Shown here: positions 15,219 to 31,342 of the stretch, in pieces | Position numbering within the stretch: position 1 is the stretch's first letter | How the letters are laid out: every line of letters starts with the position of its first letter | NCBI GenBank assembly: GCA_009784725.1 | Contig: WQXS01000023.1 | Coordinates: 1-32,598 of the forward strand | DNA length: 32,598 nt | DNA from: Oscillospiraceae bacterium | Lineage (GTDB): Bacteria; Bacillota; Clostridia; Oscillospirales; Oscillospiraceae | Direction of reading: 5' to 3' | Position numbers and translations under genes: made by a program | The notes under the pieces: model-generated | Seen by the model: only the letters and a program-made list of their open reading frames with translations | What the model was told of the DNA's origin: nothing | Database searches by the model: none

Positions 15219-16712
15219 TTATTTTCCGACACAAAATCTTTCAAAAATACCGGAAATAATATCCTCACGCATGTTTTTACCGGTGATTTCACCTATTGCG
15301 GAAAGTGCAGACTCTATATCGACCAGAACCGCATCCGGTGTGACCGATGCGGTCAATGCCGTTATTGCTTCATTTATACTGCCGGCAGATCTTGTCAGTG
15401 CATCTGCCTGCCTTGCATTTGTTATCAGGCTTCCGTATTGCTGTATGTGTTTGCCGGAGTCATCTCCGGTATCTTCGGGAGAAGCGGCAAACAGGGGGAA
15501 CAAGTTTTTTATTTCTTCGTCTAAAGAAGTAAGCCCTTCGCCGGATAGGGCTGATATGCTGCAGTATTTGATTCCGAGTTTGTTAATTTCGGTATCACTT
15601 AGAACTGCAGGTAAATCGGATTTATTGACGACAGCGATTTTCGGAACATCCGGCGGAATCGAGTGCAGTGCGTCATAATCCTCGCGCATCAGCGGCTGCG
15701 AACCGTCGAGTACAAGGATAACGAGCTCCGCACCGCTGAGAGCGGCAACAGTTCTCTCAACTCCGAGCTTTTCGATTTCATTTTCCGTGTGCCTTAGTCC
15801 TGCAGTGTCGATAAGACGCAGCAGGACATTTCCTATAATAGCTTTTTCTTCGATGGTATCTCTTGTTGTACCTGCAACATCGGTAACAATGGCACGCTCG
15901 AAACCTAAAAGAGCATTTAACAGTGATGATTTTCCCGTATTCGGCCGCCCGATAATAGCGGTAGGTATTCCGTTTTTTATAACCTTACCGTGCTCATATG
16001 ATTTAAGCAGATGCTGCAATTCCGATTCTACTTCCTGCAGACTGTTCAGATAGGTTTGCAGGTTAAATTCATCTATGTCCTCATCGGGATAATCAAGAAC
16101 AGCATGAAAATGCGTCATTATATCAAGAAGATTGTTATATATTGAGCTAAGCTTTAAGCCTATCATTCCTTGAAGCTGACCGGCTGCATTTTTAGCTGCA
16201 GCGGTCGTTTCGGACTCAATCAGGTCTATAACAGCTTCCGCCTGTGTTAAATCCATTCGGCCGCTCAGAAATGCCCGTTTGGTAAACTCCCCGGGCAAAG
16301 CCTGCCGGACTCCGTGTTTAAAAAGCTGTTGCAATACTTCCGATAGGACAACCGGGGAACCGTGACAATGAAACTCTACAGTATCCTCACCGGTATACGA
16401 ATTGGGTGCTCTCGAAACTACACATAGACATAAATCAATAACACAAGGGGACGGTTCTCCTGTGTTTTTATTTAAGCCTGACGAATTATTGTTTAATGTT
16501 TCGGCAAACACAGGAGAACCGTCCCCTTGTGTCGGCTGTCTTACCAGTTCACCGTAATACATTTGCCTGCATGCTGCATCATATAAACGCATTCCGTTTG
16601 CAGAACGAAACATATTATCCGCAACGGTCAACGCTTTGTTTCCGCTGATACGGATAATTCCGACAGCAGAAATTCCGCTCCCGGTGGCAACAGCAGCAAT
16701 AGTATCAGACAA
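15219..16712 (-). CDS. mnmE: tRNA modification GTPase MnmE with palindromic-repeat insertion
   Basis: With MnmG, installs the carboxymethylaminomethyl group at wobble uridine 34. It has the N-terminal formyl-THF-binding domain (DTIAAVATGSGISAVGIIR), a helical domain with the G domain inside it (GRPNTGKSSLLNALLG P-loop, GTTRDT, DTAGLR, NKSD), and a C terminus ending FCVGK, close to the canonical CIGK. I start it at TTG 16712, with AAGGGG seven bases before; the open frame up to 16778 overlaps the preceding gene. Even so it has 497 residues, about 40 more than usual. Nearly all the excess is residues 60-91, encoded by a 92-nt perfect inverted repeat (16441-16532) in frame, in a loop between YYGELVR and VIDLCLCVV. 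The protein remains open and complete, so it is probably functional. Confidence 0.96.
   Translation of the reverse strand: MSDTIAAVATGSGISAVGIIRISGNKALTVADNMFRSANGMRLYDAACRQMYYGELVRQPTQGDGSPVFAETLNNNSSGLNKNTGEPSPCVIDLCLCVVSRAPNSYTGEDTVEFHCHGSPVVLSEVLQQLFKHGVRQALPGEFTKRAFLSGRMDLTQAEAVIDLIESETTAAAKNAAGQLQGMIGLKLSSIYNNLLDIMTHFHAVLDYPDEDIDEFNLQTYLNSLQEVESELQHLLKSYEHGKVIKNGIPTAIIGRPNTGKSSLLNALLGFERAIVTDVAGTTRDTIEEKAIIGNVLLRLIDTAGLRHTENEIEKLGVERTVAALSGAELVILVLDGSQPLMREDYDALHSIPPDVPKIAVVNKSDLPAVLSDTEINKLGIKYCSISALSGEGLTSLDEEIKNLFPLFAASPEDTGDDSGKHIQQYGSLITNARQADALTRSAGSINEAITALTASVTPDAVLVDIESALSAIGEITGKNMREDIISGIFERFCVGK
16441..16532. repeat. REP-like palindromic element inside mnmE
   Basis: Two perfectly complementary 27-nt arms (16441-16467 and 16506-16532) flank a 38-nt centre. 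Each arm begins ACACAAGGGGACGG and ends CCTGTGTTT, so each is itself a weak palindrome (ACACA/TGTGT ends), as in REP/BIME units. The same core occurs at 26046-26105 and 29933-29950. It is translated in frame as part of MnmE (arms read TQGDGSPVF and NTGEPSPCV). Confidence 0.93.
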
Positions 16713-16731
16713 AAAAACACCCCTTGGTTTA

Positions 16732-17136
16732 TTATTTTTTAGTGTGGAGTTCAATTTTTTCACGAAGTTTTTCGGCATTTATCGGTTTTATCAAGTAATC
16801 ACACGCACCGAGGCGGGTTGAAAGATTATAAAAATCTGCAGATTTTATACTTGTCAAATAGATTACAGGTGTGTTTTTATGCTCGGGAAATGAACGTATA
16901 ATAGGCATTAACTCAAATCCGCTTATTTCGGGCATGCTGTAATCGAGCAGGAATAAGTCCGGTGTTAGTTCTGTTAACAGCTCTTTAAGCTTAACGGGGT
17001 CCGACAATGTGTGTACTTTATATTTATCCTTTAATAGAGAATGAACCGTTCGCAAGATGTCGGGAGCATCATCAACAGCGAGTATTACCGGCCTGTTATC
17101 ATCGTCATGTTTCTTTTTACTTGCTTTTTTATCCAT
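16732..17136 (-). CDS. Single-domain (CheY-like) response regulator
   Basis: A 134-residue receiver domain with no output domain. Visible conserved positions are the acidic pair in AVDDAPD, the phospho-acceptor Asp in LFLLDYSMPEISG, the Thr/Ser in IYLTSIK and the Lys in YLIKPI. A lysine-rich N-terminal tail (DKKASKKKHDDDN) precedes it. ATG at 17136 is used because GGAGG lies 11 bases before it; the more upstream ATG (17154) contains that GGAGG in its own codons. It ends 19 bases before the mnmE start, so the two are probably co-transcribed. The cognate kinase is not adjacent. It may be a phosphorelay intermediate or act by protein contact. Confidence 0.88.
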   Translation of the reverse strand: MDKKASKKKHDDDNRPVILAVDDAPDILRTVHSLLKDKYKVHTLSDPVKLKELLTELTPDLFLLDYSMPEISGFELMPIIRSFPEHKNTPVIYLTSIKSADFYNLSTRLGACDYLIKPINAEKLREKIELHTKK

Positions 17137-17312
17137 ATAACAAAGTACCTCCATATTTATATAAACTATAAAACCTCTCTATTCTCTAATTAGACAAGGA
17201 GAGGTTCTGTTTGTCAAGTATATTCCAAAGAAAATGCATTTATTAGTATTAAATATAATTATTTAAGCAATATTCATGAAATGATTTTGCTGATTTATGA
17301 GTTTATCGTCTT

Positions 17313-17702
17313 TTACGGGTAATCCGGCATTTGGTTTTTTGTAACTATTTGCGCTCCGAACGGGATTAGTGAGAGTTTTGCCAACTTGAAATGCTGCAAT
17401 CCGAATGGAATTCCCACTATTGTTATGCAAAATAGTAAACCAAAGCATAAATGACTCAGGCACAGTGAAATACCGCATACTAAAATCCATATCACATTAC
17501 CCAAAGCACCCATAACCCCGAACCCGCCGGGTATGCAGTCCCTGCCAAAGGGCCAAAGTACAAAGCTCGCAATCTTAAAGCATTGAATACCAAACGGAAT
17601 ACCGAAAATTGTTATGCATAACAGCAACCCGGTAATAGCCCATACACACGCCAGAAACAATCCGCCAAATATAAGCCACAACAAATTCCCGATAAAACTC
17701 AT
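17313..17702 (-). CDS. YccF-family inner-membrane protein
   Basis: A 129-residue hydrophobic protein with the YccF domain in duplicate. The first half contains LLLCITIFGIPFGIQCFKIA followed by LWPFGRD, the second LLFCITIVGIPFGLQHFKLA followed by LIPFGAQ. Each half has hydrophobic segments likely to span the membrane (about 4-32 and 66-93, with re-entrant pieces after them). The function of the family is not established. The ATG follows AAAGGGA. Region 17137-17312 downstream and 17703-17936 upstream are AT-rich and hold no recognisable gene. Confidence 0.88.
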   Translation of the reverse strand: MSFIGNLLWLIFGGLFLACVWAITGLLLCITIFGIPFGIQCFKIASFVLWPFGRDCIPGGFGVMGALGNVIWILVCGISLCLSHLCFGLLFCITIVGIPFGLQHFKLAKLSLIPFGAQIVTKNQMPDYP

Positions 17703-17936
17703 TTAACAATTCCCTTTTCTAAATTATAAACATTATATCATCACTCAGTATTTATTGTATATTAACATACATTGATTAAACAAAAATACAAGAATTATGA
17801 AAAACACATTAAATTGCACTGCTCCTCTTTACTGCATCTTACAATGCACCTGAGAAATTGTGGGCAAATAATAGCAAAATAATGTATAAATTTGTGCAAT
17901 TAAAATAAAAAATACTACGAGAACGGTTTTATTGCA

Positions 17937-18311
17937 TTAGTCATCTATACCCAAACAAAACGGATGACCTTCCGGGTCGAACAGTGTGACCCAGTGATTT
18001 ACACCGTATTGCTGCGGTGCTTTTACAGCGCCAAGCTCAACAGCATATGCAACCGATGCATCTAAATCTTCGACTCCAAAATCAAGATGTATCTGCTTTT
18101 GCTGCATTCCATCCTCTTCCGGCCAAACAGGCGGGATATAATCAAAATCACATGCAGAAAACATCAGCATTAAATCCTTGTTTATAACCAATCCCGGAGA
18201 ATTATACATTTTACACTTCTCCAACCCCGTCAGCTTATGATAAAACTCCTGCAACCCCGCCGGGTCCTTGCAATCAATGAAAATGTGTGTTAATGAAATT
18301 TTTATAGACAT
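17937..18311 (-). CDS. VOC (glyoxalase/bleomycin-resistance) family protein
   Basis: A 124-residue protein of the vicinal oxygen chelate fold: two beta-alpha-beta-beta-beta modules, the first beginning ISLTHIFIDCKDPAGLQEFY, the second QIHLDFGVEDLDASV. It ends with VTLFDPEGHPFCLG, the usual glyoxalase-like C terminus. Metal ligands are plausible (His in LTHIF, His in QIHLDF) but a clear C-terminal Glu is missing, since the segment reads HPFCLG. It may therefore be a non-enzymatic or binding member. AAGGAGAG precedes the ATG. A decayed copy of its 5' end lies at 19452-19523. Confidence 0.85.
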   Translation of the reverse strand: MSIKISLTHIFIDCKDPAGLQEFYHKLTGLEKCKMYNSPGLVINKDLMLMFSACDFDYIPPVWPEEDGMQQKQIHLDFGVEDLDASVAYAVELGAVKAPQQYGVNHWVTLFDPEGHPFCLGIDD

Positions 18312-18370
18312 ATATGCTGTCTCTCCTTAGTATATTCTTTGATAGGCCTCGTTTCGTTGCTTTATGCGTT

Positions 18371-19207
18371 CTATTTCTCTTTTGCTTCAGACTTCAATTG
18401 CTCAACCAATGCAGTCAATTCGGCAATTTCGGCATCTTTCTCAGCCATATGGATTTTATTTTCAGCAATTTCGGCATCTAATTCGGCGATTTCTTCTTCC
18501 ATTACTTCCATATGAGTTTCGATGTTATATTCAGCCATTAACATGTTGCTGACCTCCGTTCCATATTTTTCCAAAAATCCAGTAAAAGCGTCCTGTGTCT
18601 CTGCCCATTTTACAGTTTTATCTACCGCTTCATCCGTGGTGTATCCCTTTTGCTTTTCGTTTTTTACACTCTCACAAAATGTTGTGTAAATACTTAAGGT
18701 TTCGCTTTTTTTGAGAAGCTCATCATTAAAACCGTGATTTATGTTTATTACTTTAACCGTAAGCTCAAGATTTCCAAATATATCATGTGAGTTTTTTGAT
18801 ATAAATGCGTCTGACAAACGCAATATCTTTTCACTTGGGAAAGGAGCTAATCCATTATATAATACAATAAACTCAGGAGTTGGTAAGTTAATTAATATTT
18901 GTTTAAATGCCGAACGTTTGGAAATCATTTTTTCATATATTCTACCTATATACATCAAGCATCGAAGCGGCATATTATTATTTATGGTAGATTGGTGTTC
19001 GAGTATAACTACAAACTTGTCGTCAATAGTAAATGATACATCGTTTTTTATGCCTTTGAAGAAAACCTTTTTTATTGTATTAATCTTAACCGGTGTGTCT
19101 TTACCGTAATTTGTATTTGCAAGTGCATTATATAGTTCTCGAAGATTGTCAGGTTCGTTAAAAAGCCCTGAAAATAGATTTGATTTAAACTCCCTGTTTG
19201 ATTCCAT
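18371..19207 (-). CDS. Rpn-family PD-(D/E)XK nuclease
   Basis: A 278-residue protein of the Rpn/transposase_31-like group, linked to DNA cleavage and RecA-independent recombination. The nuclease core is visible as NDVSFTIDDKFVVILEHQST, with the D...E-x-Q arrangement of the PD-(D/E)XK fold (about 54-73), after an N-terminal helix FKSNLFSGLFNEPDNLRELY. The C terminus (about 230-278) is a charged coiled coil of near-repeats (EEIAEL, DAEIAEN, DAEIAEL), also visible as repeated DNA (GCCGAAATTGC units). It has a GGAGG ribosome site and lies in AT-rich accessory DNA. These genes are often in multicopy families. Its target here is unknown. Confidence 0.85.
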   Translation of the reverse strand: MESNREFKSNLFSGLFNEPDNLRELYNALANTNYGKDTPVKINTIKKVFFKGIKNDVSFTIDDKFVVILEHQSTINNNMPLRCLMYIGRIYEKMISKRSAFKQILINLPTPEFIVLYNGLAPFPSEKILRLSDAFISKNSHDIFGNLELTVKVININHGFNDELLKKSETLSIYTTFCESVKNEKQKGYTTDEAVDKTVKWAETQDAFTGFLEKYGTEVSNMLMAEYNIETHMEVMEEEIAELDAEIAENKIHMAEKDAEIAELTALVEQLKSEAKEK

Positions 19208-19252
19208 TTGCGTTTACCTCCATATTATATGATTTATTTTTGATATTTTCAA

Positions 19253-19276
19253 GAAAAAAGTGCCGTATAACGGCAC
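19253..19276 (-). terminator. Orphan terminator upstream of the Rpn gene
   Basis: On the minus strand a 6-bp stem, GTGCCG paired with CGGCAC (19260-19265 with 19271-19276), has a five-base loop and is followed by a T-run. It lies about 50 bases upstream of the Rpn start, with no intact minus-strand gene before it. It may be a relic of the decayed VOC gene's transcript or an attenuator in the Rpn leader. Confidence 0.7.
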
Positions 19277-19451
19277 CGTAGCATGAGACTCAAAAGGCTG
19301 TCAATATACACGGAAGTGGTGAAAATGATTACAATTTCAACACTTTATCGGTCGATGTTTACACTAACGTAATCACTACAGTTGGTAAACTGTGAATATT
19401 TCAACATAAAAATATTTTTAGAAAATCAAGCAAAAGTTAAGGATTTTGTTT

Positions 19452-19523
19452 TAAAAAACTCCTGCAACCATTCCAATCCTTGCAATCTATAAATATATGA
19501 CCTAATGGAATGTTTGTAGACAT
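19452..19523 (-). pseudogene. Remnant of a VOC-family gene (5' end only)
   Basis: The minus strand from 19523 reads ATG-Ser-Thr-Asn-Ile-Pro-Leu-Gly-His-Ile-Phe-Ile-Asp-Cys-Lys-Asp. This matches the start of the intact VOC gene at 17937-18311 (MSIKISLTHIFIDCKD). The DNA match continues through GGTTGCAGGAGTTTT but is out of frame there relative to the intact copy, and it stops after about 72 bases. The sequence just upstream (AGACATATATG on plus) is shared too, while the ribosome site is lost. So this is a truncated, frameshifted duplicate. Confidence 0.75.
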
Positions 19524-19571
19524 ATATGTTGCTTTTTACTATCTAAATATTGAGAATAACGCTTGCAATAT

Positions 19572-19835
19572 CATGAGCCGGAATGTATACTCATGCTAAG
19601 GAAACGAAAGTGCCTCGCCGATATTTCCGGCGGCAGGCGGGAAGGGTTGCAGCCCTCCCCACCCTGTACACGTATGAACGCTACGTACACAATTGCATCT
19701 AGCAACACCGTCTGATTATTATAAGACTTAATGTACCATGGTGCAAGTCATAATAGTCGCTTGTGTCGCACATAACATGCTGTGTATGTAAAACTGCTCA
19801 CCAGAGCAGGCTGTACACGGCATTTTTCGTTTCCT
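19572..19835 (+). ncRNA. Candidate structured RNA, multi-stem, class unknown
   Basis: The 600-base gap before the SPFH gene holds a dense set of stems. A long closing helix pairs 19599-19614 with 19819-19835. Inside lie hairpins 19616-19632, 19639-19659, 19665-19689, 19693-19705, a long one at 19714-19758 (9 bp, AA bulge, 5 bp, then a 5-bp apical stem) and 19794-19809; weaker ones lie at 19762-19772 and 19775-19789. A CATGAG/CTCATG hairpin (19572-19595) sits just before it. Non-Watson-Crick positions are G-U on the plus strand (610/823, 716/756, 734/743, 647/652) but would be A-C on the minus strand, so plus is the transcribed strand. It ends 55 bases before the next gene, so it is either a leader or a separate RNA. 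I cannot match it to a named family. Confidence 0.62.
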
Positions 19836-19847
19836 GTAAAAGAGATT

Positions 19848-19853
19848 TATAAT
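19848..19853 (+). promoter_or_regulatory. Possible -10 box for the SPFH operon
   Basis: A perfect TATAAT lies 37 bases before the SPFH ATG, directly after the 3' strand of the structured RNA's closing helix. The best -35 at 17 bases is only TTTCGT (19825-19830), which is part of that helix. If used, the operon would start independently of the RNA. Confidence 0.35.
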
Positions 19854-19890
19854 ATTAACACTGACTTAGAATAAGAAAGCAGGTTACATT

Positions 19891-21291
19891 ATGGGATTAA
19901 TAAAAGCTGCACAAGGGGCAATAAGTGGCACATTGGCTGATCAATGGAGAGAATACTTTTATTGCGATACATTACCAGCCAATATTTTGGCAATAAAAGC
20001 AAGAAAAAGAGTTACAGGACGTTCAGCTAATGTAAAAGGTGATGAAAACATTATATCTACCGGTTCTGTAGTAGCAGTTGCCGACGGTCAATGCATGATT
20101 ATTGTTGAGCAAGGAAAAATTATTGATGTTTGCTCTGAACCGGGTGAGTTTATTTTTGATTCCGGTGGTACACCCTCACTTTTTGCAGGGGGTGACTTGG
20201 GCGCAAATGCTCTAGGTTCTTTGAAAACGGTATGGGAAAGATTCAAACTTGGAGGGCAACCCGGGTTAGATACAAGAGTATACTATTTTAATACTAAAGA
20301 AATTATTGGAAATAAATATGGAACACCAAATCCGATTCCGTTTCGTGTAGTTGATAGTAACATAGGGTTGGATATTGATATTGCTATAAGATGCTTTGGT
20401 GAATTCAGTTACAAATTAACCAATCCAATCTTATTTTATACAAACGTTACAGGCAATATAACGACTGCTTATGTGCGCGAAATGATTGATAATCAGTTAA
20501 GAACAGAACTTATGACCGCATTACAACCTGCGTTTTCTAAGGTGTCGGCAATGGGGATTCGTTACTCTGCATTACCCGGACATACGCAAGAACTTGCTCA
20601 AGCACTTAATGATATATTATCTGACCAGTGGCAAAGTTTGCGTGGTATTGAAATTGTTTCTCTTGGCGTCACATCTGTTAGCGCAAGTAAAGAAGATGAA
20701 GATATGATTAAGAATCTTCAACAGAAAGCTGTAATGAGAGACCCGGGTATGGGTGCAGCTTCTATTGTTGATGCACAAGCAGAAGCAATGAAATCCGCAG
20801 CAAGTAATGAAGTGACAGGACCGATGTTTGCGTTTGCAGGAATGAATATGGCTGCAAATACAGGCGGTATGAATGCACAGAATTTATATACAATGCAACA
20901 AAATAATAATTCAAATGATACTGCTTGGGATTGTTCGTGTGGTCATGATGGAATAACCAGTAAATTTTGTACTAAATGCGGTTTTCCGAAACAAGAAAAT
21001 GTAATTGCGCCAATAAAGGGTGATAGTTGGAAATGCTCATGCAGTGATGAAGTTATAACAGGAAAGTTCTGTGCAAAATGTGGAAAACCAAAACCTGAAC
21101 AGGAGTTAATTAATGGATGGAAATGTTTTTGTGGAGAAAATATTGCTTCCGGTAAATTTTGCTCAGAATGTGGTAAACCAAGACCCGAAGAACCGACTAA
21201 TAAATGTACCGAATGTGGATGGGAATCTCCTGATTCATCAAAGCCTCCTAAGTTCTGCTCAGATTGTGGCAGTACGATAAATTCAAATTAA
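19891..21291 (+). CDS. SPFH-domain protein with four C-terminal zinc ribbons (YdjI-like)
   Basis: A 466-residue protein. Residues about 20-290 form an SPFH/band-7-type domain of the kind annotated as virion-core-protein-like (COG4260; YdjI in Bacillus): REYFYCDTLPANILAIKA at the start, then IISTGSVVAVADGQCMIIVEQGKI, and an alternating helical end EDEDMIKNLQQKAVM. After a low-complexity Met/Ala/Asn linker come four CxC/CxxC...CxxC zinc ribbons at about 346-367, 380-401, 410-432 and 437-463. It has no TM segment, so it would scaffold on the cytoplasmic membrane face. In Bacillus YdjI helps bring PspA to the membrane; here no pspA is present. First gene of a four-gene operon; AAAGCAGG is a weak ribosome site. 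Confidence 0.86.
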   Translation: MGLIKAAQGAISGTLADQWREYFYCDTLPANILAIKARKRVTGRSANVKGDENIISTGSVVAVADGQCMIIVEQGKIIDVCSEPGEFIFDSGGTPSLFAGGDLGANALGSLKTVWERFKLGGQPGLDTRVYYFNTKEIIGNKYGTPNPIPFRVVDSNIGLDIDIAIRCFGEFSYKLTNPILFYTNVTGNITTAYVREMIDNQLRTELMTALQPAFSKVSAMGIRYSALPGHTQELAQALNDILSDQWQSLRGIEIVSLGVTSVSASKEDEDMIKNLQQKAVMRDPGMGAASIVDAQAEAMKSAASNEVTGPMFAFAGMNMAANTGGMNAQNLYTMQQNNNSNDTAWDCSCGHDGITSKFCTKCGFPKQENVIAPIKGDSWKCSCSDEVITGKFCAKCGKPKPEQELINGWKCFCGENIASGKFCSECGKPRPEEPTNKCTECGWESPDSSKPPKFCSDCGSTINSN

Positions 21292-21339
21292 TTAACACAT
21301 AATGCAGAAGTACAGTAATCAGTTATATGGGGATAAAAT

Positions 21340-21864
21340 TTGTTTAAGAAAAAAGAAAAAAGTGCTGTAGAAAAAGCACATGATGAGCGAAAAACTATAA
21401 TTGAAGAAATGAGATATCCTTATTGGATTTGTTTCTTTTTTGGAGGGTGTGCTTTATTTGGCAGTATTGGAGGATTAATTTCCTTGTCTTTTGTTGGAGT
21501 AGTTTTCGCAGTAATTGGATTTTCTTTAATTTACATTGGCATAAAATTTAAAAGAACGTTTTCAAGGAGAATGAATGTATTAAATATAGTTCCAAATAGC
21601 GGGAAGGTAAGCATTTCATATATAGCAAGTGCTGCAGGCGTTTCAGATAATATAATTATTGAAGATTTACAGACACTCATTAAAAAAGAATTGTTAGAAG
21701 GAGTTTATGTAAATATCGCAACAAATGAAGTAATAATAAATAGTAAAAGCAGAACAAACAACGAACAGCTCGATGCAAGAAGAGTAAAATGTGTAGGATG
21801 TGGAGCTATTAACAGTGTAACCGGTAAAGTCGGTGAATGCGTGTATTGCGGGTCACCATTATAG
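21340..21864 (+). CDS. Two-TM protein with winged helix and C-terminal zinc ribbon
   Basis: I do not recognise a named family. The 174 residues show a charged N-terminal helix (1-25), two membrane spans (about 27-49 and 50-70), a cytoplasmic helical segment that looks like a winged helix (about 80-134, NSGKVSISYIASAAGVSDN... followed by a beta-hairpin EGVYVNIATNEVII), and a CVGCGA...CVYCGSPL zinc ribbon (151-171). The winged helix resembles the PCI-like protein-protein module more than a DNA-binding one. The start is TTG, with GGGG seven bases before it in the same context (GGGGATAAAAT) as the channel gene. It lies 48 bases after the SPFH gene and shares its architecture with the next gene. 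Confidence 0.75.
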   Translation: MFKKKEKSAVEKAHDERKTIIEEMRYPYWICFFFGGCALFGSIGGLISLSFVGVVFAVIGFSLIYIGIKFKRTFSRRMNVLNIVPNSGKVSISYIASAAGVSDNIIIEDLQTLIKKELLEGVYVNIATNEVIINSKSRTNNEQLDARRVKCVGCGAINSVTGKVGECVYCGSPL

Positions 21865-21904
21865 AGTTATTAAGAAATAGGTAAGAAACGAGGTGAGCTA
21901 TTAA

Positions 21905-22792
21905 TTGAAGAAAGTAAAGCTGAGTTTAATTATTTTTTTTGTTCTATGTTCATTTTTTATACTCAGTGCTTGTAAATCATCAGATAACTCATCCGGTTCT
22001 GCTGATATTATTATTAAATATGAAAGTAATACATTGTTAAATAAATATGACATTGAAATATATCTTAATGGGAGAAATTTGGGGAGTATAAGACAAGGTG
22101 AATCAAAAACTTTTCCGGCTACATTAATTAGCGGAACAAATAGATTACGAACTAGTAGAGTTGACAATGTAAACAACAGTTTTGAAATAGAATTTGATAA
22201 TGTAGGAGACGGAAAATACAGTTTCACAAGCAATGCAAGAATGGGTGGACTTGAAATTAAGTTTAATAGTGGACCCAGAGAAGGTTTATATACAGTTCTT
22301 TTTGTTATCGGAGGTTTAGGTTTTACTTTTGTTATAGTTTACTTTTCTATTAAATTAGGTAAAAAGACTGATGTTAGAATTAAAAGAGAAGAAAAAGTAA
22401 CATCATTAATATCGGCGTCAAAAATCTATTCCATTACAGAAATTGCTTTTCACAGCCACTTAAGTAATGATGAAGTTGTTGATATAATCAATGACCGTAT
22501 CCAAATTGCTAATCAACTGCCGAATGACAAGAAATGTGAGGAATATGAAAAATACCGATTCTTACGCAATGCTCAAATCGATAAGATTAATAATAAAATT
22601 ATACTTGATGAGGGTGCTATGAAAATAACCTCGAAACTCGATAATGTTACGAATGCGATAAATAAAATATTTAGAGGAACCGACCCTGAGGTCCCAAAAG
22701 AAAAAGTTGTTACATGTGATTACTGTGGAGGAAAGAACACGTCAACCTCAGAAAGCATAAATAAGTGTAATCAATGCGGAGCTCCTTTGTAG
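21905..22792 (+). CDS. Lipoprotein-type membrane protein with winged helix and zinc ribbon
   Basis: A 295-residue protein. A signal peptide with lipobox LSAC (Cys 23) is followed by a beta-rich extracytoplasmic domain (about 33-125), one TM helix (about 129-151), a basic stretch, a cytoplasmic winged-helix-like region (about 163-236) and a CDYCGG...CNQCGAPL zinc ribbon (271-291). The cytoplasmic half parallels that of the preceding gene; the outer domain is extra. Such a layout suits a sensor that passes a surface signal to the SPFH/zinc-ribbon scaffold, but that is inference. The start is TTG with GAGGTGA eight bases upstream. The gene is 41 bases after its neighbour and 28 before the channel. 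Confidence 0.75.
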   Translation: MKKVKLSLIIFFVLCSFFILSACKSSDNSSGSADIIIKYESNTLLNKYDIEIYLNGRNLGSIRQGESKTFPATLISGTNRLRTSRVDNVNNSFEIEFDNVGDGKYSFTSNARMGGLEIKFNSGPREGLYTVLFVIGGLGFTFVIVYFSIKLGKKTDVRIKREEKVTSLISASKIYSITEIAFHSHLSNDEVVDIINDRIQIANQLPNDKKCEEYEKYRFLRNAQIDKINNKIILDEGAMKITSKLDNVTNAINKIFRGTDPEVPKEKVVTCDYCGGKNTSTSESINKCNQCGAPL

Positions 22793-22819
22793 TAGATTCT
22801 TAAATATAGGGGATAAAAT

Positions 22820-24916
22820 ATGAAAAAAATACGTGAGTGGATCAGCATTCGTTCTGTAAAAACACCAAAACTAATGGTATTGCTAATCATATTAGCAGCT
22901 AATATTGTTTTTTTATTCTTTGCTGCATTTGTTATTATGACATTAGAGCTTGAGATGCTCGATAATCCTGGTTTTTGGCATAGTGTATATTACGCATCAA
23001 CTATGCTTGTTTCAGGGTTTACCAGTGATGTAATTACTGAGGTTAATAGAGCAGATGCGATTCTCATTATTTTCAGTATGATTTGCGTTATTATCGGTAT
23101 GATAACATTCACAGGTACGGTCATTGGTTACATTGCTCAGGTTATTTTTAATTTTGTTGAAATGGCAGATTCAAATACCAGGAAGTTACGTATTTCCAAT
23201 CATACTGTAATTTTGAACTGGAATACGTGTGCAACAGAGATTATTAATGAATTAATGCATAAAAGTATGAGAGAAAAAATAGTTGTTCTTGTAGAACACG
23301 ATAAAGACGAAATCTTACAAGAGATAAAAGAACGGTTATCAGACACTCTTGAAATCGATAATAAAGAAGTTAGAGAAACTGCTTTGAAATTACAACCCTC
23401 TGAACGGAAAAAATATATTCGTAAAAATAAAGTCAGTAATAAATTAATGCTTATTGTTCGTGAAGGAGATTCCTGGTCTGCCAAACAATTAAATGATATT
23501 TCTATTAAAAATGCAAAAAGTATAATCATCCTAAGTAACGGGAAGGCGATTGCGCATGAGAGCAACGATTCAGATGAAGTGCTTGAAACAAAAGAAAAGG
23601 GGAATGCTAGTACAGTAAAAACATTGCTTCAAGTTGCACAATTAATCTCAGAAGAAGACTCAATGCCAAATCAAGTTGTGGTTGTCGAAGTAGAAAACGA
23701 TTGGACCCTGAAATTAGTTAAAACAATTATTGAACAAATGAAGAGCAGGGGTGGATGCAAAATTATACCCGTGGCAGCAAATCATATTCTTGGACAAGTA
23801 TTTTCTCAATTCGCATTAATGCCGGAACTTAATCTCGTTTACAATACACTTTTTTCTAATAAAGGTGTTTCGTTATTCACGAAAGCATCTGATGATTATG
23901 CTCTTACAGAAACAGAATTTGTATCTGGATATATTAAAGACCATTTTGAAGCTATCCCTCTTAGTCTAATTCATGATGAAGATGGTAAACTTTACCGATA
24001 TTATATGTCTGACACTGAGCAACATATTGATAATATTGGTTCATTTTCATCAACACGGAATCTTAATGTATCTATTAATCCCAATTACGAGATTTTGGAT
24101 AAACACATTCTTATTTTAGGACATAACAGTAAAAGTGTAGCGATTATGGAAGGAATTGATGCTTTTTATAAAGAGTGGAAGAAAATTGATGGTCCGGAAG
24201 TGTTGGATGTAACAATAATTGACTCAGAAGCGAACTTGGAAAAACATGTATGCTATAACCAATATTCTTTTATTAATAAGATTATTGGTGCTGATATATA
24301 TAGTAGTGATGTAATAAATAATGCTATAACTGAGTTTATTGAATCTTATAGAAACCGTGGGAGTATTATTATTCTTTCGGACGATACGGTTCCCGAAGAA
24401 AATATTGATGCAGATGTCCTTACATATCTGGTTTTTATTAATAATATTATCGAAAAACAGATAGCAAATAACCCGGCTTTTAATCCAGATAGTATTGATC
24501 TTGTCGTAGAAATACTTAATCCCAGAAATTTTGATATCTTAAATCAATATAGCACAAAAAACATTGTAATCAGTAACCGTTATATTAGTAAAATGATTAT
24601 GCAAATTAGTGAAAAAGAATCAATATTTCATTTTTATGAAAATCTTCTTGATTATGATATTAATGATGCAGAACCGTTGTCTTCAAAAGAATTGTTTATC
24701 AAAAGAGCAGAAGAGTTCTTTACAGAGATACCGGAAGCTTGCACTGCAGCTGAGTTGATAAGAGCTGTTTATATTAATTCACCAGAAAATAACAAATCAC
24801 TCTTACTGGGTTACTTCTGTCCAAAAGGAGAAATGACACTGTTTGCCGGAGACCAGAGGAAAATAAGTATAGCACTTACAAATAAACACAAACTTATACT
24901 ATTTAGTAACCATTAA
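22820..24916 (+). CDS. CASTOR/POLLUX-like ion channel with RCK-type domains
   Basis: A 698-residue protein with TM1 (about 17-41), a pore helix and loop (about 51-70, HSVYYASTMLVSGFTSD), TM2 (about 79-110) and a very large cytoplasmic part. The latter starts with HTVILNWNTCATEIINEL (about 128-145), the first strand of an RCK/TrkA-N-like Rossmann domain as in CASTOR/POLLUX, and has a second such domain near 430 (DKHILILGHNSKSVAIMEGI). In plants these proteins are nuclear-envelope cation channels. The filter position lacks the K-channel TVGYG signature, so ion preference is unclear. No zinc ribbon is present, unlike in its three partners. GGGGATAAAAT precedes the ATG. Last gene of the operon. 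Confidence 0.8.
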   Translation: MKKIREWISIRSVKTPKLMVLLIILAANIVFLFFAAFVIMTLELEMLDNPGFWHSVYYASTMLVSGFTSDVITEVNRADAILIIFSMICVIIGMITFTGTVIGYIAQVIFNFVEMADSNTRKLRISNHTVILNWNTCATEIINELMHKSMREKIVVLVEHDKDEILQEIKERLSDTLEIDNKEVRETALKLQPSERKKYIRKNKVSNKLMLIVREGDSWSAKQLNDISIKNAKSIIILSNGKAIAHESNDSDEVLETKEKGNASTVKTLLQVAQLISEEDSMPNQVVVVEVENDWTLKLVKTIIEQMKSRGGCKIIPVAANHILGQVFSQFALMPELNLVYNTLFSNKGVSLFTKASDDYALTETEFVSGYIKDHFEAIPLSLIHDEDGKLYRYYMSDTEQHIDNIGSFSSTRNLNVSINPNYEILDKHILILGHNSKSVAIMEGIDAFYKEWKKIDGPEVLDVTIIDSEANLEKHVCYNQYSFINKIIGADIYSSDVINNAITEFIESYRNRGSIIILSDDTVPEENIDADVLTYLVFINNIIEKQIANNPAFNPDSIDLVVEILNPRNFDILNQYSTKNIVISNRYISKMIMQISEKESIFHFYENLLDYDINDAEPLSSKELFIKRAEEFFTEIPEACTAAELIRAVYINSPENNKSLLLGYFCPKGEMTLFAGDQRKISIALTNKHKLILFSNH

Positions 24917-25015
24917 TAATCATTCAAGCGTAGTAGAATTATTGCTTATAGAAACAAATCTCAAATTACAACTTACTTAAATGTAATGTAACTCTATAAA
25001 AAGGAAAGGATTTTT

Positions 25016-25144
25016 ATGCTAGAAACTATTATAAACTTAACTCTTCCTGTGATAATCCATATATTAGAGTTAATGGGTGTTGCTGTCATTTGCTTTGGTT
25101 GTGTTGTGTCCCACTTTGAACAATTTATTTTATCAAAATTTTGA
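25016..25144 (+). CDS. Small one-TM membrane protein, 42 residues
   Basis: A short open frame with a good ribosome site (AAAGGAAAGG, about six bases before the ATG). It encodes MLETIINLTLPVIIHILELM, then GVAVICFGCVVSHFEQF and a short tail. It is one hydrophobic helix containing a Glu (residue 18) and resembles the N-terminal helix of DUF1622 membrane proteins (ELxGVxxI pattern). Full DUF1622 proteins are about 120 residues, and the following sequence has stops in all frames, so this is either a genuine small protein or a truncated remnant. It lies 99 bases after the channel gene on the same strand. Confidence 0.5.
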   Translation: MLETIINLTLPVIIHILELMGVAVICFGCVVSHFEQFILSKF

Positions 25145-25230
25145 TATTTATCTATTGACCTTGAACCTGCTTCATAGTTCATAATGATTTTGCGGTGTGG
25201 TGCACTGACAAAAAAGTAAGGGGTATGGTT

Positions 25231-26025
25231 ATGCAGGAGATTATTATTGATAATGAGTTTAAGTTTCTTCTTCCCGTGCTTGATGAAAAAGCATTTGCAG
25301 ATCTTGAGGCGGATGTTTTGGAAAACGGGATTCGTGATTCATTAGTGTTATGGGAAGGGATATTGATTGATGGTTATAACCGATTCAATATCGCACAAAA
25401 GCATGGTCTTCCGTTTAATACAGTGAGTATGGAGTTTAATTCCCGTGATGAGGTTGTGATTTGGATTATCAGAAATCAAATTGCACGCAGAAATCTTACG
25501 ACCTTTCAACTAAGGTATTTTCGCGGTTTACATTACCATGCAGACAGAAGGAGCCAAGGGAGCAATAATCCTCATGTGCAAGATTTAACAAAACCTCAAA
25601 ATGAAGTTTTGTTAAATACCGCTGCAAAACTCGCTGAGAAATATAATGTGTCAAGAAGCACTATAGAGCGTGATTCCAAGCTTGCTGATGCTCTTATTGC
25701 TTTAGGTGAAGTATCCCCCGAAGCCAAGCTTAGTATTTTATCCGGTGAAACTAAAGTAACAAGGTCTGAGCTTGATGCGATGCTTGTTGGTTCTGAGGAA
25801 AATATAACAGAAATCGCAGAAAGTATCGAGAACGGAACGTTTACGGAACGCAGAGCGGAAAATGCAGGCACTGAGGACAGGACGCTGGAGTCGGCTTTTG
25901 ATAAAATATCCAATCTCATAAAGAGGGAGCTTGATGGATTATCAAAAGCATATAAACCCGCAGAGCTAAAAGCCGCACTGAGGTCGCATATTACTGCACT
26001 TGAAGGTATTTATATGCAGATATAG
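25231..26025 (+). CDS. ParB-like N-terminal domain protein
   Basis: A 264-residue stand-alone ParB/sulfiredoxin-fold protein. The N-terminal domain contains EFKFLLPVLDEKAFADLEAD, then LVLWEGILIDGYNRFNIAQK, where GYNR replaces the classic GERR/GHNR nucleotide-binding turn. Next comes the conserved NQIARRNLTTFQLRYFRG, then a helix-turn-helix AAKLAEKYNVSRSTIERD (about 130-150). The C-terminal part is helical. No ParA gene or parS site is adjacent, so plasmid partitioning is not implied; such proteins are common as accessory genes in clostridia. ATG at 25231 is seven bases from AAGGGG; the ATG at 25225 is too close. Confidence 0.8.
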   Translation: MQEIIIDNEFKFLLPVLDEKAFADLEADVLENGIRDSLVLWEGILIDGYNRFNIAQKHGLPFNTVSMEFNSRDEVVIWIIRNQIARRNLTTFQLRYFRGLHYHADRRSQGSNNPHVQDLTKPQNEVLLNTAAKLAEKYNVSRSTIERDSKLADALIALGEVSPEAKLSILSGETKVTRSELDAMLVGSEENITEIAESIENGTFTERRAENAGTEDRTLESAFDKISNLIKRELDGLSKAYKPAELKAALRSHITALEGIYMQI

Positions 26026-26045
26026 GGTAAGTATTGAGTTTATAA

Positions 26046-26105
26046 ACACATAGGGACGGTTCTCTTGTGTCAGTCTTAGAGCACAGTAGAACCGTCCCCT
26101 TGTGT
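26046..26105. repeat. REP-like palindromic repeat, second copy
   Basis: The left arm (26046-26070) contains AGGGACGGTTCTCTTGTGT and the right arm (26082-26105) contains AGAACCGTCCCCTTGTGT. They are imperfect inverted copies around an 11-base centre. The unit is the same as in mnmE but with a shorter centre. It lies between the convergent ParB-like and LytTR genes and may also act as their terminator. Confidence 0.85.
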
Positions 26106-26130
26106 TCCGGATTGGGGCTCTGCTTTGTTG

Positions 26131-26847
26131 CTATGTTAATTTCCAATTCCGTGAAAGTAAGCAGGTTGTGTTATTTGTCATTGTGACTGTTTTTTCTTTT
26201 TTATTTATTGAAGCTATTTTGTTTTTGTTGATTATATAAGACTTGTGGCAACGGGAGAAGCAGTCATCGAGTTTTGCTTCTATTTCTTTTAGCTCTCCGC
26301 CAAACTCCAATACTCTGCTGTTTGTGTGCAGGCGCAGCTTGTGGCGGACATGTGTTGTTTCGATGAATATAATATCACTCAGTTCGACAAAGATTATTCT
26401 ATCATCAACAGTTACCTTAAGCACCTTTGAACTGTCTTCTGAAAAACTCCGGCGTAATGCGATATCTATGCATTCGCCGATTTTTATTTTTATGCTGTCA
26501 GGGTTGTCTTTAATCAGAAAATCCAGAGCTTCTACTTTATATTGGAAGGTTAAGAGGGTCATTTCAGAGTGGGTTGTTATAAATATAATAAAAACTTTTG
26601 AACCGGTGGCGTTTTTTTCTCTTATTAACCGTGCAAGTTCAATTCCGTTTATTTCGGATTTTAGGTCGATGTCAAGTAAAAAAAGTGCAGGATTTAAGCC
26701 GCTCCACTCAGATAGCAAACTCTTTGGGTCATGTGTTGCAAAAGTGAGAGCAGCATCAACGTTTTTTACTGCACAATAGTCCGAAACGTGTTCGGATAAT
26801 AATTTTCGCCAGCGTTCATTGTCTTCACAAACATAAATTTCCAACAT
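26131..26847 (-). CDS. LytTR-family response regulator
   Basis: A 238-residue AgrA/ComE-type regulator. The receiver domain has CEDNE near the N terminus, the phospho-acceptor Asp in LFLLDIDLKSEINGIEL and the ITTH switch segment. The LytTR DNA-binding domain (about 138-236) has VDDRIIFVELSDIIFIET, then HKLRLHT, LEFGGELKEIEAKL, and FSRCHKSYIINKNKI, the last being the classic signature. Its ATG overlaps the stop of the kinase gene in TAATG, so the two are translationally coupled. It probably binds the direct repeats between the kinase and the divergent ABC genes. Confidence 0.93.
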   Translation of the reverse strand: MLEIYVCEDNERWRKLLSEHVSDYCAVKNVDAALTFATHDPKSLLSEWSGLNPALFLLDIDLKSEINGIELARLIREKNATGSKVFIIFITTHSEMTLLTFQYKVEALDFLIKDNPDSIKIKIGECIDIALRRSFSEDSSKVLKVTVDDRIIFVELSDIIFIETTHVRHKLRLHTNSRVLEFGGELKEIEAKLDDCFSRCHKSYIINKNKIASINKKEKTVTMTNNTTCLLSRNWKLT

Positions 26848-28157
26848 TATTGTGCATCCTTTACAGTCAGTGTTTGAGTGAAGTATATTCCGTCAATTTC
26901 TGTTTCAAGATAGAGATTGTTTATTTTTTCCGTATAATTGCGAATCGTATACAAACCTATGCCACGGTCTTTTGATTTAGTTGAAAAGCCAAGCTCAAAT
27001 AATTTGTCTACTGCTATTTTCTGTTGTTTCCATGTGTTTTTGATAATAAAGGTTTTTGAATTCGGGTTTTTTATGACTGCAATTCCAAGTTGCTTTTCCT
27101 CTGCTTCTAAAATTGCTTCAATTGCATTATCCATCAGGATTCCCAATATCTGGCAGACAATTGCCGTTGATACTCCAAGATTTTCAATGCTTTCTCTGAC
27201 TTCAATGGTCGGTTCAATCTGCTGATGTGATGCAAAAGAGCACTTATAAATAAGAACACTTTTTATTTCGTTGATTTTTATGTTTTGCAAGCTACCAATG
27301 AGCCGGTCATAACCAAGCAGTTCCTTATTCATTTCCGATAGTTCTCCGGTGTAATATTCGGCGAGTCCTGCCATGTCGTTATTCTCAATATACAGCTTAA
27401 AAGATGACATGATATTTACATAGTCGTGCTTAATTGTCCGCATTGCTGTATATGATTCTTCCAAATCCTGAATGTATTTGCGGGAAGCTTCGGTTATAAG
27501 CCTTTCGGTTTTTAGCGAGTTTTCCTTATACGCGTTTTTGATGATTATCACAAATAATAGTATTACCGAAATAAAAAACAACGCATACATTATATCACCT
27601 GTGGAGTCTAAAAAATCTCCCCTGTAATTAATGTATGAAAGAATTATCATAATACCCGAAATTGCTGTTATGGCATATATGCTTTTATTGTTAAAAATGT
27701 TCATATCAATGCGCTTTTTAAGATAACGGCTGAAAATAAGGACAAAAGAAACCAAAATGGCAAAAAATATAATATATGTTATCAGCCACAGAATGCTTTC
27801 CTCTATCAACTCCTCCTGACCGATAATCCTAAAGAACAGGGTCGTGGTTCCGTTAATGCCGAAAATCGTTAGCCCCGACATTAACGATGCAAAAAACCCT
27901 TTGATAATATTTTTATGCATAAGCGATAACATAATCAATAAATAGAGGGTAACATACAGATAAAAAACCTCCGGAGATAAATCAGTAACTATTCCGCTGA
28001 AACCGAGAATAAAACCAAAAGCAAGTGAAACCACTACGGCGATTATGTTATATTTCAATTCTTTCTTTTTTTCAATTTTAAATAAACTCATGTTTTCGCC
28101 GCAAAGCATCATTATTATACAAAACAAAAACAGACTGAGACAAAGAATAAAATTCAA
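26847..28157 (-). CDS. GHKL sensor histidine kinase (AgrC/ComD type)
   Basis: A 436-residue membrane kinase. The N-terminal half has about seven hydrophobic spans up to residue 205, with no large outer domain, as in peptide-sensing kinases. A coiled coil leads to the phospho-acceptor His in MRTIKHDYVN (near 250). The GHKL ATPase has the N box VCQILGILMDNAIEAILEA and the G box KSKDRGIGLYTIRNY. I start it at TTG 28157, six bases after GAGGTG; the in-frame GTG at 28166 lies within that site. It is divergent from the ABC exporter, which argues for a role in sensing an antimicrobial or signalling peptide. Confidence 0.92.
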   Translation of the reverse strand: MNFILCLSLFLFCIIMMLCGENMSLFKIEKKKELKYNIIAVVVSLAFGFILGFSGIVTDLSPEVFYLYVTLYLLIMLSLMHKNIIKGFFASLMSGLTIFGINGTTTLFFRIIGQEELIEESILWLITYIIFFAILVSFVLIFSRYLKKRIDMNIFNNKSIYAITAISGIMIILSYINYRGDFLDSTGDIMYALFFISVILLFVIIIKNAYKENSLKTERLITEASRKYIQDLEESYTAMRTIKHDYVNIMSSFKLYIENNDMAGLAEYYTGELSEMNKELLGYDRLIGSLQNIKINEIKSVLIYKCSFASHQQIEPTIEVRESIENLGVSTAIVCQILGILMDNAIEAILEAEEKQLGIAVIKNPNSKTFIIKNTWKQQKIAVDKLFELGFSTKSKDRGIGLYTIRNYTEKINNLYLETEIDGIYFTQTLTVKDAQ

Positions 28158-28210
28158 ATTGTTCACCTCAGGTAATAATTTAAATTACGCGGCAGCAGAG
28201 GTCAAGGTGT

Positions 28211-28242
28211 TTTTGGATAAACAGTTGTAATTTTCGGATAAA
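28211..28242. promoter_or_regulatory. Tandem direct repeats, candidate LytTR-regulator operator
   Basis: TTTTGGATAAA (28211-28221) and TTTTCGGATAAA (28231-28242) place identical GGATAAA cores 21 bases apart, two helical turns. This is the geometry of AgrA/ComE-type LytTR sites. They lie between the kinase start and the -10 box of the ABC operon. Binding by the neighbouring regulator is an inference. Confidence 0.5.
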
Positions 28243-28267
28243 ATGCTTACCCTTTGCACTTTGGTAC

Positions 28268-28296
28268 TTTTTCAAGCCGGTTTGTTCAATTATAAT
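28268..28296 (+). promoter_or_regulatory. Promoter of the ABC exporter operon
   Basis: A perfect TATAAT (28291-28296) is preceded after 17 bases by a poor -35 (TTTTTC). That pattern is expected of an activator-dependent promoter. The GGATAAA repeats lie just upstream. The leader of about 80 bases contains a CTGAG/CTCAG hairpin. Confidence 0.5.
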
Positions 28297-28383
28297 CTGT
28301 ACTTCCGAAGGATATGCTACAGTGCTTGTGATGTTACTGAGCGGAGACTCAGAGCAAAAAGTCTATGAAAAAGAGGAGGAAAT

Positions 28384-29232
28384 ATGGATACGGCAATTAA
28401 AATGACAAATGTTCATAAAAGTTTCGGCGAGAGCAAAGTAATCAACGATGTTTCAATTTCCATTCAAAGCGGAGAGCTGATAGGTTTTCTCGGACCGAGC
28501 GGTGCAGGTAAAACGACTACGATTAAATTACTCACGGGGCAACTCAGGCAGGAAATGGGGACAGCTGAAATTCTGGGAAAGAGTAACACAACCCTTAACC
28601 ACGAAAGCTACAAGCAAATTGGAATCGTTTCGGATAATTCGGGATTGTATGAAAACTTAAACGCTTATGACAACCTTTTATTATTCTCACGAATTTTAAA
28701 TGTGGATGCAAAAAAAATAAAAACGATGCTCGAACGTGTCGGGCTAAAAGAGCATGCAAAAAAAACGGTTAAGAAATTTTCAAGGGGAATGAAGCAAAGG
28801 TTGGTTCTGGCTCGTGCTTTAATGCATAATCCCAAAGTATTGTTCCTTGATGAGCCTACATCGGGGCTTGACCCGAGTACAACAATTGAAATTCATAAGC
28901 TGATGATGGAGATGAAGGAGGGCGGTACTACTTTTTTCTTAACAACACACGATATGACGGAAGCATCAAAGCTTTGCGATAGGATAGTTTTATTTAATGA
29001 AGGCAAAATTATTGATATGGGAACCCTTGACGAATTAAGTCAAAAGTATAACACGAATAAATACGTTCAAATCCTTCTGACATCCGGAGAATCAATCAAG
29101 CTTAGGTTAAATAAAGAAAATAGTACCAAAATCGCCGATTTAATCGCAAATGACCAAATAGCGACAATGCATACCGGTGAACCGACTCTTGAAACAATAT
29201 TCTTAAAACTGACAGGGAGGGGTCTGCAATGA
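28384..29232 (+). CDS. ABC transporter ATP-binding protein
   Basis: A 282-residue ATPase of the CcmA/DrrA-like group used by ABC-2 exporters. Walker A is GPSGAGKTT (about 38-46), the Q-loop region lies near YKQIGIVSDN, the signature is FSRGMKQRL in place of LSGGQ, Walker B is VLFLDEPTSGLD, and the switch His lies in TTHDMTEA. A C-terminal extension of about 70 residues follows, typical of this group. AAGAGGAGG precedes the ATG. The stop overlaps the permease start by four bases. With the divergent LytTR/GHKL pair it fits a peptide-export or bacteriocin-immunity system. Confidence 0.94.
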   Translation: MDTAIKMTNVHKSFGESKVINDVSISIQSGELIGFLGPSGAGKTTTIKLLTGQLRQEMGTAEILGKSNTTLNHESYKQIGIVSDNSGLYENLNAYDNLLLFSRILNVDAKKIKTMLERVGLKEHAKKTVKKFSRGMKQRLVLARALMHNPKVLFLDEPTSGLDPSTTIEIHKLMMEMKEGGTTFFLTTHDMTEASKLCDRIVLFNEGKIIDMGTLDELSQKYNTNKYVQILLTSGESIKLRLNKENSTKIADLIANDQIATMHTGEPTLETIFLKLTGRGLQ

Positions 29233-29930
29233 TTTCCGGAAGAAAAATATTTGCACTTTTTGCAAAAGACATTAAGTCATTAGCATATAACATTTTTATT
29301 ATTTCCGGCTTACTGATTATGCCTGTAATGGCGATTATGTTTACCTTCGGCATGGACGAGCCGGATGTTTGGCTTGCCGATTTTCTTATAAAGATGAACA
29401 TTTTGATTAATGGAGCAAACATCATCTGCGTGATGATAGCTGAAGAAAAAGAAAAACACACCCTCAGTGTGCTCATTGCTTCGACGGTATCGGGAGCAGA
29501 CTTTCTGATCAGCAAGGTTCTTGTTACGGGTCTTCTGACGTTTATCTCAAACGGAGTTTTGTATTTCATAATGGGGCTTGGGAGTATTCTTCCGTTTGGT
29601 ACATTTATGCTTATGACGGGAATTGCAATTTTACCTGTTACGGTAGTGGGTGCAATAATCGGACTTTTATGCAAAACACAAGCGGCAGCCTCAACCGCAG
29701 TAACACCTGTTATGATGCTCCTAGTATTTCTCCCGATGTTTATCCCGCAAGAAAGTTTCTTTGCCGAAAGCATCTTTAAATATGTCTTCTCGGAGCAAAT
29801 GTCACTGGGACTTGCATCTATTTATAACGGAGAACCCTTTTTGTCAAATATCATAATAATAACAATAAATTTCGCAATACTTGCAACCGCATTCGGATTC
29901 ATATACAAAAAGAGAGGGATATCTGCATAA
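29229..29930 (+). CDS. ABC-2 type permease
   Basis: A 233-residue membrane protein with six hydrophobic segments. It begins with the family pattern IFALFAKDIKSLAYN and has the EEKEKHTLSVLIASTVSGADFLISK stretch after TM2, the characteristic ABC-2 coupling region, in residues about 72-96. It starts within the ATGA overlap with the ATPase gene, so the two form one transporter. The substrate is unknown. Context (LytTR two-component system) suggests a peptide. Confidence 0.92.
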   Translation: MISGRKIFALFAKDIKSLAYNIFIISGLLIMPVMAIMFTFGMDEPDVWLADFLIKMNILINGANIICVMIAEEKEKHTLSVLIASTVSGADFLISKVLVTGLLTFISNGVLYFIMGLGSILPFGTFMLMTGIAILPVTVVGAIIGLLCKTQAAASTAVTPVMMLLVFLPMFIPQESFFAESIFKYVFSEQMSLGLASIYNGEPFLSNIIIITINFAILATAFGFIYKKRGISA

Positions 29931-29932
29931 AA

Positions 29933-29950
29933 TAACCGTCCCCCATGTGT
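29933..29950. repeat. Half copy of the REP-like repeat
   Basis: AACCGTCCCCCATGTGT, right after the permease stop, matches the right arm of the other repeats (AACCGTCCCCTTGTGT). No matching left arm is present, so it is a truncated copy. Confidence 0.65.
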
Positions 29951-30003
29951 TCCTTGTGTGCTGGCAAACACTTGCAAAAAACGCAAGCGATTGCCGAAAC
30001 CAG

Positions 30004-30039
30004 CAAGAACTTGCAAGCTGTGCAAGTTCTTGTTATAAT
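30004..30039 (+). promoter_or_regulatory. Promoter of the DUF4143 ATPase gene overlaid by a perfect inverted repeat
   Basis: TTGCAA (30011-30016), a 17-base spacer and TATAAT (30034-30039) form a near-consensus promoter 37 bases before the ATG. A perfect 12-bp inverted repeat (30004-30015 with 30021-30032, five-base loop) covers the -35 and most of the spacer. It could be a repressor operator or, as RNA, the terminator of the upstream ABC operon (T-tract weak). Confidence 0.6.
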
Positions 30040-30075
30040 AAAACCAATGTGTGATTTAAGTACAGGAGTTTAAAC

Positions 30076-31323: not shown

Positions 31324-31342
31324 CTATACATGTTAATGGCTA

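Follow-up and report, generated by a model that had tools for sequence, protein, structure and literature searches.

A candidate SPFH-adaptor scaffold encoded beside a pore-altered CASTOR-like channel in an Oscillospiraceae bacterium

YdjI and PspA of Bacillus subtilis need the membrane proteins YdjG and YdjH to localise to the membrane (PMC8581546), and in a Firmicute operon PspA and a band-7 ribbon protein go with partners of the TFIIB-type ribbon and TPM types (PMC11237479). The plant symbiosis channel CASTOR, a nuclear channel like POLLUX and DMI1, has the predicted filter AD265S(A)GNHA, in which the substitution D265N abolishes the current; what that paper says of the filter aspartate is based on this one mutant (PMC6697748). 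Here we describe four adjoining genes from an Oscillospiraceae bacterium (contig WQXS01000023.1; the whole analysed stretch of 32,598 nucleotides is called the window below), which encode a zinc-ribbon SPFH protein, two putative membrane adaptors that we call P2 and P3, and a CASTOR/POLLUX-like channel. As in the pspA-ydjGHI genes of B. subtilis, an SPFH protein with a C-terminal ribbon is encoded with two membrane proteins; there, ribbons are present in one of the two membrane proteins, and the pair anchors the SPFH protein (PMC8581546, PMC11237479). Unlike in pspA-ydjGHI, P2 and P3 belong to a different membrane family and a channel is added. A preliminary description of the locus was aware of no published system that combines these four genes, and our search of the open-licence literature, which mostly lacks subscription papers, agrees: it gave no paper linking SPFH proteins to CASTOR-type channels or describing the P2 family. 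The genes of the module are as follows.

19891..21291, + strand: SPFH (Band_7_1) protein of 466 residues with four C-terminal C4 zinc ribbons, by its PF13421 match and ribbon count
21340..21864, + strand: P2, 174 residues, TTG start; predicted membrane hairpin, PCI-like winged helix and C4 zinc ribbon
21905..22792, + strand: P3, 295 residues, TTG start, P2 paralogue; lipoprotein signal, outside domain, one predicted transmembrane (TM) segment, diverged winged helix and C4 ribbon
22820..24916, + strand: CASTOR/POLLUX-like channel of 698 residues with two predicted TM segments, an RCK-type gating region and the filter aspartate lost
23000..23020, + strand: codons of the channel's filter stretch, T61-M-L-V-S-G-F67 (TMILDAGC in most relatives)

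All four open reading frames (ORFs) are intact, uninterrupted and collinear on the + strand. The tight collinear spacing seen earlier holds, with measured gaps of 48, 40 and 27 bases in place of the 48, 41 and 28 first given. A Shine-Dalgarno-like purine-rich stretch lies upstream of P2, P3 and the channel, with a weaker one before the SPFH gene, and the start context GGGGATAAAAT is common to P2 and the channel. A terminator scan found no + strand site between module genes, its sole + hit lying inside the SPFH gene; overall the scan gave 5 hits vs 3.3 +/- 1.8 in shuffled sequence. As far as sequence can tell, this layout fits one operon.

The SPFH domain matches PF13421 in Pfam (E 9.5e-17), and a simple hydropathy scan, the source of all TM calls here, gives the protein one marginal stretch at 54-72. 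The earlier assignment of this gene to SPFH plus zinc ribbons is thus borne out, as is the remark that such ribbons form the ends of three of the four proteins, since the SPFH protein has four C4 ribbons and P2 and P3 have one each. SPFH relatives occur in 114/245 genomes of the class (E up to 0.001, weak matches counted), and those at 29 retrieved loci are 51-69% identical to the window protein over the matched part. Their recognisable partners, judged by eye, are YdjG/YdjH-like, whereas the window has P2, P3 and the channel; at some loci (e.g. L094, L101, L110, L114) genes for TFIIB-type ribbon and TPM-type secreted proteins, again named by eye, adjoin the SPFH gene. In genomes G029 and G183 the SPFH genes (loci L188 and L189) adjoin several TM-ribbon paralogues with ends of the type CPNCGAP...CEYCKS, an expanded partner set.

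In P2 the scan marks residues 30-64 as hydrophobic, with two overlapping peaks. In P3 it marks a signal stretch at 4-22 and a TM segment at 131-149, and the lipobox LSAC seen in the P3 sequence supports the lipoprotein part proposed for this protein. Both proteins stay below the cut-offs of all Pfam and NCBIfam models. BLASTP aligns the two over the region of TM segment, winged helix and ribbon (E 3e-5, 22% identity), which agrees with the layout that the preliminary description gave to both, and they are diverged paralogues. Full-length relatives of P3 were absent from 197 genomes of the order and 291 of the class, its own excepted. Its sole outside matches involve its N-terminal part and lie in two other lipoproteins (L013 and L014, E 2.5e-4 and 1.7e-4), which are weakly matched at their N terminus and otherwise differ; the outside domain of P3 may thus be a mobile envelope module.

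P2 is more widely distributed. As a single query it matches relatives down to E 2.6e-14, and a sequence search with E up to 0.01 reached 20/245 genomes including the window's own, several of them through helix matches only. We built a P2-family profile (A3) from 11 sequences, P2 and P3 included, across which the four ribbon cysteines are invariant. This profile matches 74/245 genomes, mostly via helix or ribbon alone; on its own genome it gives P2 1.6e-50 and P3 1.1e-43, both being seed sequences. Taking E up to 2.2e-11 and reach to profile position 198 or 199 as a strong full-length match, the family is present in 13 of the 245 sampled genomes besides the window's. Eight of the 13 gave seed sequences, which were picked by similarity to P2 alone.

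In seven of these 13 genomes (six if the near-identical operons of G078 and G027 count once) the P2-family gene has an SPFH gene as a same-strand neighbour at a distance of up to about 4 kb, and the SPFH proteins belong to two subfamilies. The SPFH-P2 half of the module therefore recurs in other bacteria. The order in G068, G238 and G161 is SPFH, hydrophobic protein, P2; in G176 the SPFH and P2-family ORFs are 12 bases apart; two genes separate them in G129, and four in both G078 and G027. We estimate that no more than about one gene in 1,000 is an SPFH gene; by this estimate, rather than by a formal null, linkage in 7/13 would be far above chance. In G176 the P2-family gene occurs along with a TFIIB-type ribbon gene. 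The P2-family gene of L097 is overlapped by a longer antisense ORF and was detected by profile.

Where a hydrophobic protein is encoded between an SPFH gene and a P2-family gene, its C-terminus reads RGGF or LGGI (L146 793-1251, L149 6569-7231, L148 5671-6429), and a similar protein with such a tail is encoded upstream of a P2 gene at a contig end (L145 6522-7112). The C-terminus of B. subtilis YdjG is apparently GGGF, as deduced from a primer (PMC8581546). Such a tail is absent from the window proteins.

The channel has TM segments at 21-39 and 80-98, two by hydropathy vs four predicted for CASTOR. Its sequence alone matches CASTOR weakly (6o6j, E 0.012) and reaches no Pfam cut-off. A profile of 40 sequences, the window protein included, matches across the gating ring of CASTOR (E 2.9e-32) and DMI1 (E 1.4e-29). 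The CASTOR/POLLUX-like identity first suggested for this gene is thereby supported. The match of the profile to the MthK pore (E 0.028) is no better than its stray sortase matches (E 0.014). Castor_Poll_mid is matched by 22/40 members (E up to 0.1, best E 3.1e-23), and the window protein is not among them.

A scan of one genome per species over 84,980 species found 78 channel loci on 77 contigs (L057 and L084 share one). By label, 71 loci are clostridial, 4 proteobacterial and one each Izimaplasma, Bacillales and 'bacterium', and the family is mainly clostridial. The channel is also rare: with the window's own genome counted, 10/291 genomes of the class, 6/197 of the order and 10/260 of the family have any match. 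Five of six channel regions from the family (L019, L028, L023, L026, L031) were taken to be loci already in the set and were counted once. Two weak hits in L186 and L187 (E 0.0009 and 0.0012) lie on opposite-strand ORFs of 76 residues and were taken as chance.

Most of these relatives resemble CASTOR at the pore, where the bacterial family keeps LDAG. We equated this filter column with CASTOR D265 by motif, the PDB chains beginning after the pore. The column holds D in 37/40 rows, with gaps in the window protein, L016 and L089; the last is an alignment fragment whose own ORF reads LDSG. The window channel reads TMLV-SGF and L016 reads TMLI-SGY, against TMILDAGC in most relatives. Across all channel loci, 69/78 called ORFs contain DAG somewhere in residues 1-150. 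For the remaining nine, LDAG comes later in L052, and DPG is found in L088, DSG in L089 and L090 and DTG in L091; the stretch looks damaged or truncated in L071 and L075 and is unclear in L085, and DAG is missing from L016. The window channel and L016 are sisters in the tree (support 100/99), so a single loss of the filter aspartate would explain both.

The calcium site also differs. Matched by hand with His463 as the anchor, N293 and S351 of the window protein stand at the columns of the CASTOR Ca2+-site residues D442 and E493. The first column is D in 35/40 members and the second is E in 11/40, being variable in the family. With the filter aspartate lost and these two residues replaced, Ca2+ selection and Ca2+ gating as in CASTOR appear doubtful for the window channel.

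The guanine-plus-cytosine (GC) content of P2, P3 and the channel is 0.31-0.32, a likeness that fits their joint acquisition; four housekeeping genes in the window, named by eye, have 0.447-0.470. The module lies in an AT-rich part of the window, 16500-31500, where GC is 0.32-0.39 in 1.5-kb windows vs 0.39-0.48 in the first half. That part also contains a PD-(D/E)XK transposase-like ORF and ParB-like, two-component and ABC genes. No channel match was found in the four same-genus genomes listed, and this absence, together with the AT-rich composition, suggests that the module may have been acquired recently. Carriage on phages or plasmids was considered and rejected: neither viral contigs nor plasmids gave a confirmed match to the channel, P2 or P3, and the SPFH protein matches 16 plasmid records, every one below 60% identity. 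A defence system was likewise rejected, since PADLOC has no match for SPFH, P3 or the channel and only weak helix matches for P2. PHROGs has no match for any of the four proteins. Two further features follow the module.

25016..25144, + strand: hydrophobic ORF of 42 residues with purine-rich AAAGGAAAGG before the ATG; operon membership uncertain
30076-31323: gene some 5 kb downstream for an AAA_14-DUF4143 protein, which hits PDC-S01, a candidate defence model of PADLOC, at E 5.7e-152

The small ORF begins 99 bases downstream of the channel gene and has no match in Pfam; it may be a remnant or a short fifth gene.

Our best reading, which we hold tentatively and place somewhat short of probable, is one two-part operon in which an SPFH-adaptor scaffold has recruited a pore-altered CASTOR-like channel, with the scaffold recruiting or gating it. 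It starts from what can be observed: the genes and what they are homologous to, the SPFH-P2 pairing found in several genomes, and the changed filter. The scaffold would be analogous to YdjGHI-PspA, and membership in that system is not claimed. We infer that the four genes are co-transcribed and that the topology leaves the winged helices and ribbons of P2 and P3 facing the cytoplasm, where the two proteins would most likely anchor and cluster the SPFH oligomer in a complex beneath the membrane, the part that YdjG and YdjH play for YdjI. The channel, with its CASTOR-like gating ring, would have been acquired together with the scaffold genes. P3 would sense an envelope signal through its lipid-anchored outside domain, and the scaffold would recruit or gate the channel on that signal; this is the weakest step and one without comparative support. 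The selectivity of the channel would be unlike that of CASTOR because the filter aspartate is gone. A more specific form, in which SPFH oligomers on PCI-ribbon adaptors (one of them a lipoprotein sensor) cluster and gate the CASTOR-type channel, its calcium-selecting aspartate lost, so that envelope stress leads to a flux of other ions, strikes us as rather unlikely in all its parts.

Several results weigh against this reading. No ORF matching the SPFH or P2 profile (E up to 0.01) stands beside the channel at any of the 78 loci, where flanks of at least 3 kb on both sides were available at 47 and of at least 6 kb at 36, the shorter ones being weak tests. Three further channel loci (L221, L222, and L239, the last with little flank) have no SPFH or P2-family gene either; a 203-residue ORF near the channel of L221 matches the SPFH profile (E 0.0019), starts with a ribbon and was read as a cross-match. 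Across whole genomes, SPFH is present in 8/15 of the channel genomes searched vs the class rate of 114/245, so there is no enrichment and a genome-wide link was rejected. Six of the 13 P2-family genomes (G211, G073, G045, G029, G195, G023) have no SPFH gene near the P2-family gene in the retrieved DNA, the loci of G029, G195 and G023 being close to a contig end, and G135, whose P2-family match of E 9.9e-10 falls just under the threshold, has none in the 9 kb retrieved. The GC content of the SPFH gene (0.384) is unlike that of the other three genes. The weak DNA-binding helix matches of P2, which come up below, belong on the same side. The SPFH/adaptor-channel pairing was seen only in the window locus. 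The original proposal named two findings that would refute it. The first, no conserved co-occurrence of the four genes in other genomes, is what we see: channels stand without SPFH or P2 at the 78 and three loci, P3 lacks full-length relatives in the 197 order and 291 class genomes, and on this evidence we rejected a conserved four-gene unit. The second, a channel-like protein devoid of RCK/CASTOR similarity, is contradicted by the profile matches to CASTOR and DMI1. Even in G476, the genome of L016 and thus of the closest relative, the SPFH gene adjoins TFIIB-type ribbon and TPM-type genes, and no channel lies in the 14 kb retrieved around it.

The main rival explains this scatter by supposing that scaffold and channel are independent cargo in one AT-rich accessory stretch, perhaps behind a common promoter, with the channel working alone. 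The apparently solitary channels elsewhere, the same-genus genomes listed without one, the low GC and the accessory surroundings with their transposase-like ORF and AAA_14-DUF4143 gene all fit it. It accounts less well for the closeness of P3 and the channel, which are just 27 bases apart and have no terminator-like site in between, for the GC content that P2, P3 and the channel have in common, or for the start context that P2 shares with the channel, and we think it unlikely, if still to be taken seriously. What P2 and P3 do is a separate question, and they could be membrane-bound one-component transcription regulators, P3 sensing outside and the winged helices binding DNA to control the operon. 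The P2 helix matches a Csa3 helix-turn-helix (E 1.4e-5) and DeoR-type models (E 2.6e-4 and 3.9e-4) in NCBIfam and CasR in PADLOC (E 5.7e-6), and MarR- and Lrp-type regulators are among the weak PDB matches of the winged-helix part. Yet the NCBIfam matches are all far below curated cut-offs, and the best PDB profile matches, themselves weak, are to PCI-type or related protein-binding domains: DDRGK1/UFL1 at E 0.005, then the PCI subunits RPN7, RPN9 and RPN6 at E 0.1-0.5. One family member comes close to the Pfam PCI cut-off (20.8 vs 22 bits), and by these comparisons the winged helix seems slightly nearer to PCI-type than to DNA-binding domains. The helix region has a net charge of 0 in P2 and -2 in P3 (range -3 to +5 over 11 sequences), and the recurrent SPFH neighbours are in keeping with a structural role, which together make regulation improbable as the function of the pair. 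Less probable still is the proposal of the preliminary description, that the locus encodes a counterpart of PspA-YdjGHI for membrane stress, with the channel in the position of PspA. The SPFH protein does carry C-terminal ribbons, as the Bacillus band-7 protein does (PMC11237479), and membrane partners adjoin the gene. However, a Pfam scan of 13 window proteins (four module, nine flanking) found no TPM protein, TFIIB-type YdjG or PspA, such neighbours are kept by other SPFH relatives, the four-gene set is not conserved, and the role of PspA is not one that a channel performs.

There is also a likeness to archaeal loci of the endosomal sorting complexes required for transport (ESCRT). The Meth_adaptin ESCRT loci have an SPFH protein with a zinc ribbon, and other archaeal ESCRT loci have kinases with TM, Ig-like and PCI-type winged-helix domains (PMC10936438). 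The likeness is one of architecture only, and homology is not implied; for ESCRT-III and Vps4 the search went no further than the Pfam scan of the 13 window proteins.

Ribbon-bearing SPFH proteins are common in the class and their partners are poorly known, and the P2 family offers a recurrent neighbour that is open to study. The apparently stand-alone clostridial channels that bear LDAG, set beside the sister pair lacking the aspartate, amount to a natural experiment on ion selection. If the more specific form of our reading is true, in which envelope stress leads to an ion flux, the window would encode a bacterial system for membrane protection whose effector is a channel.

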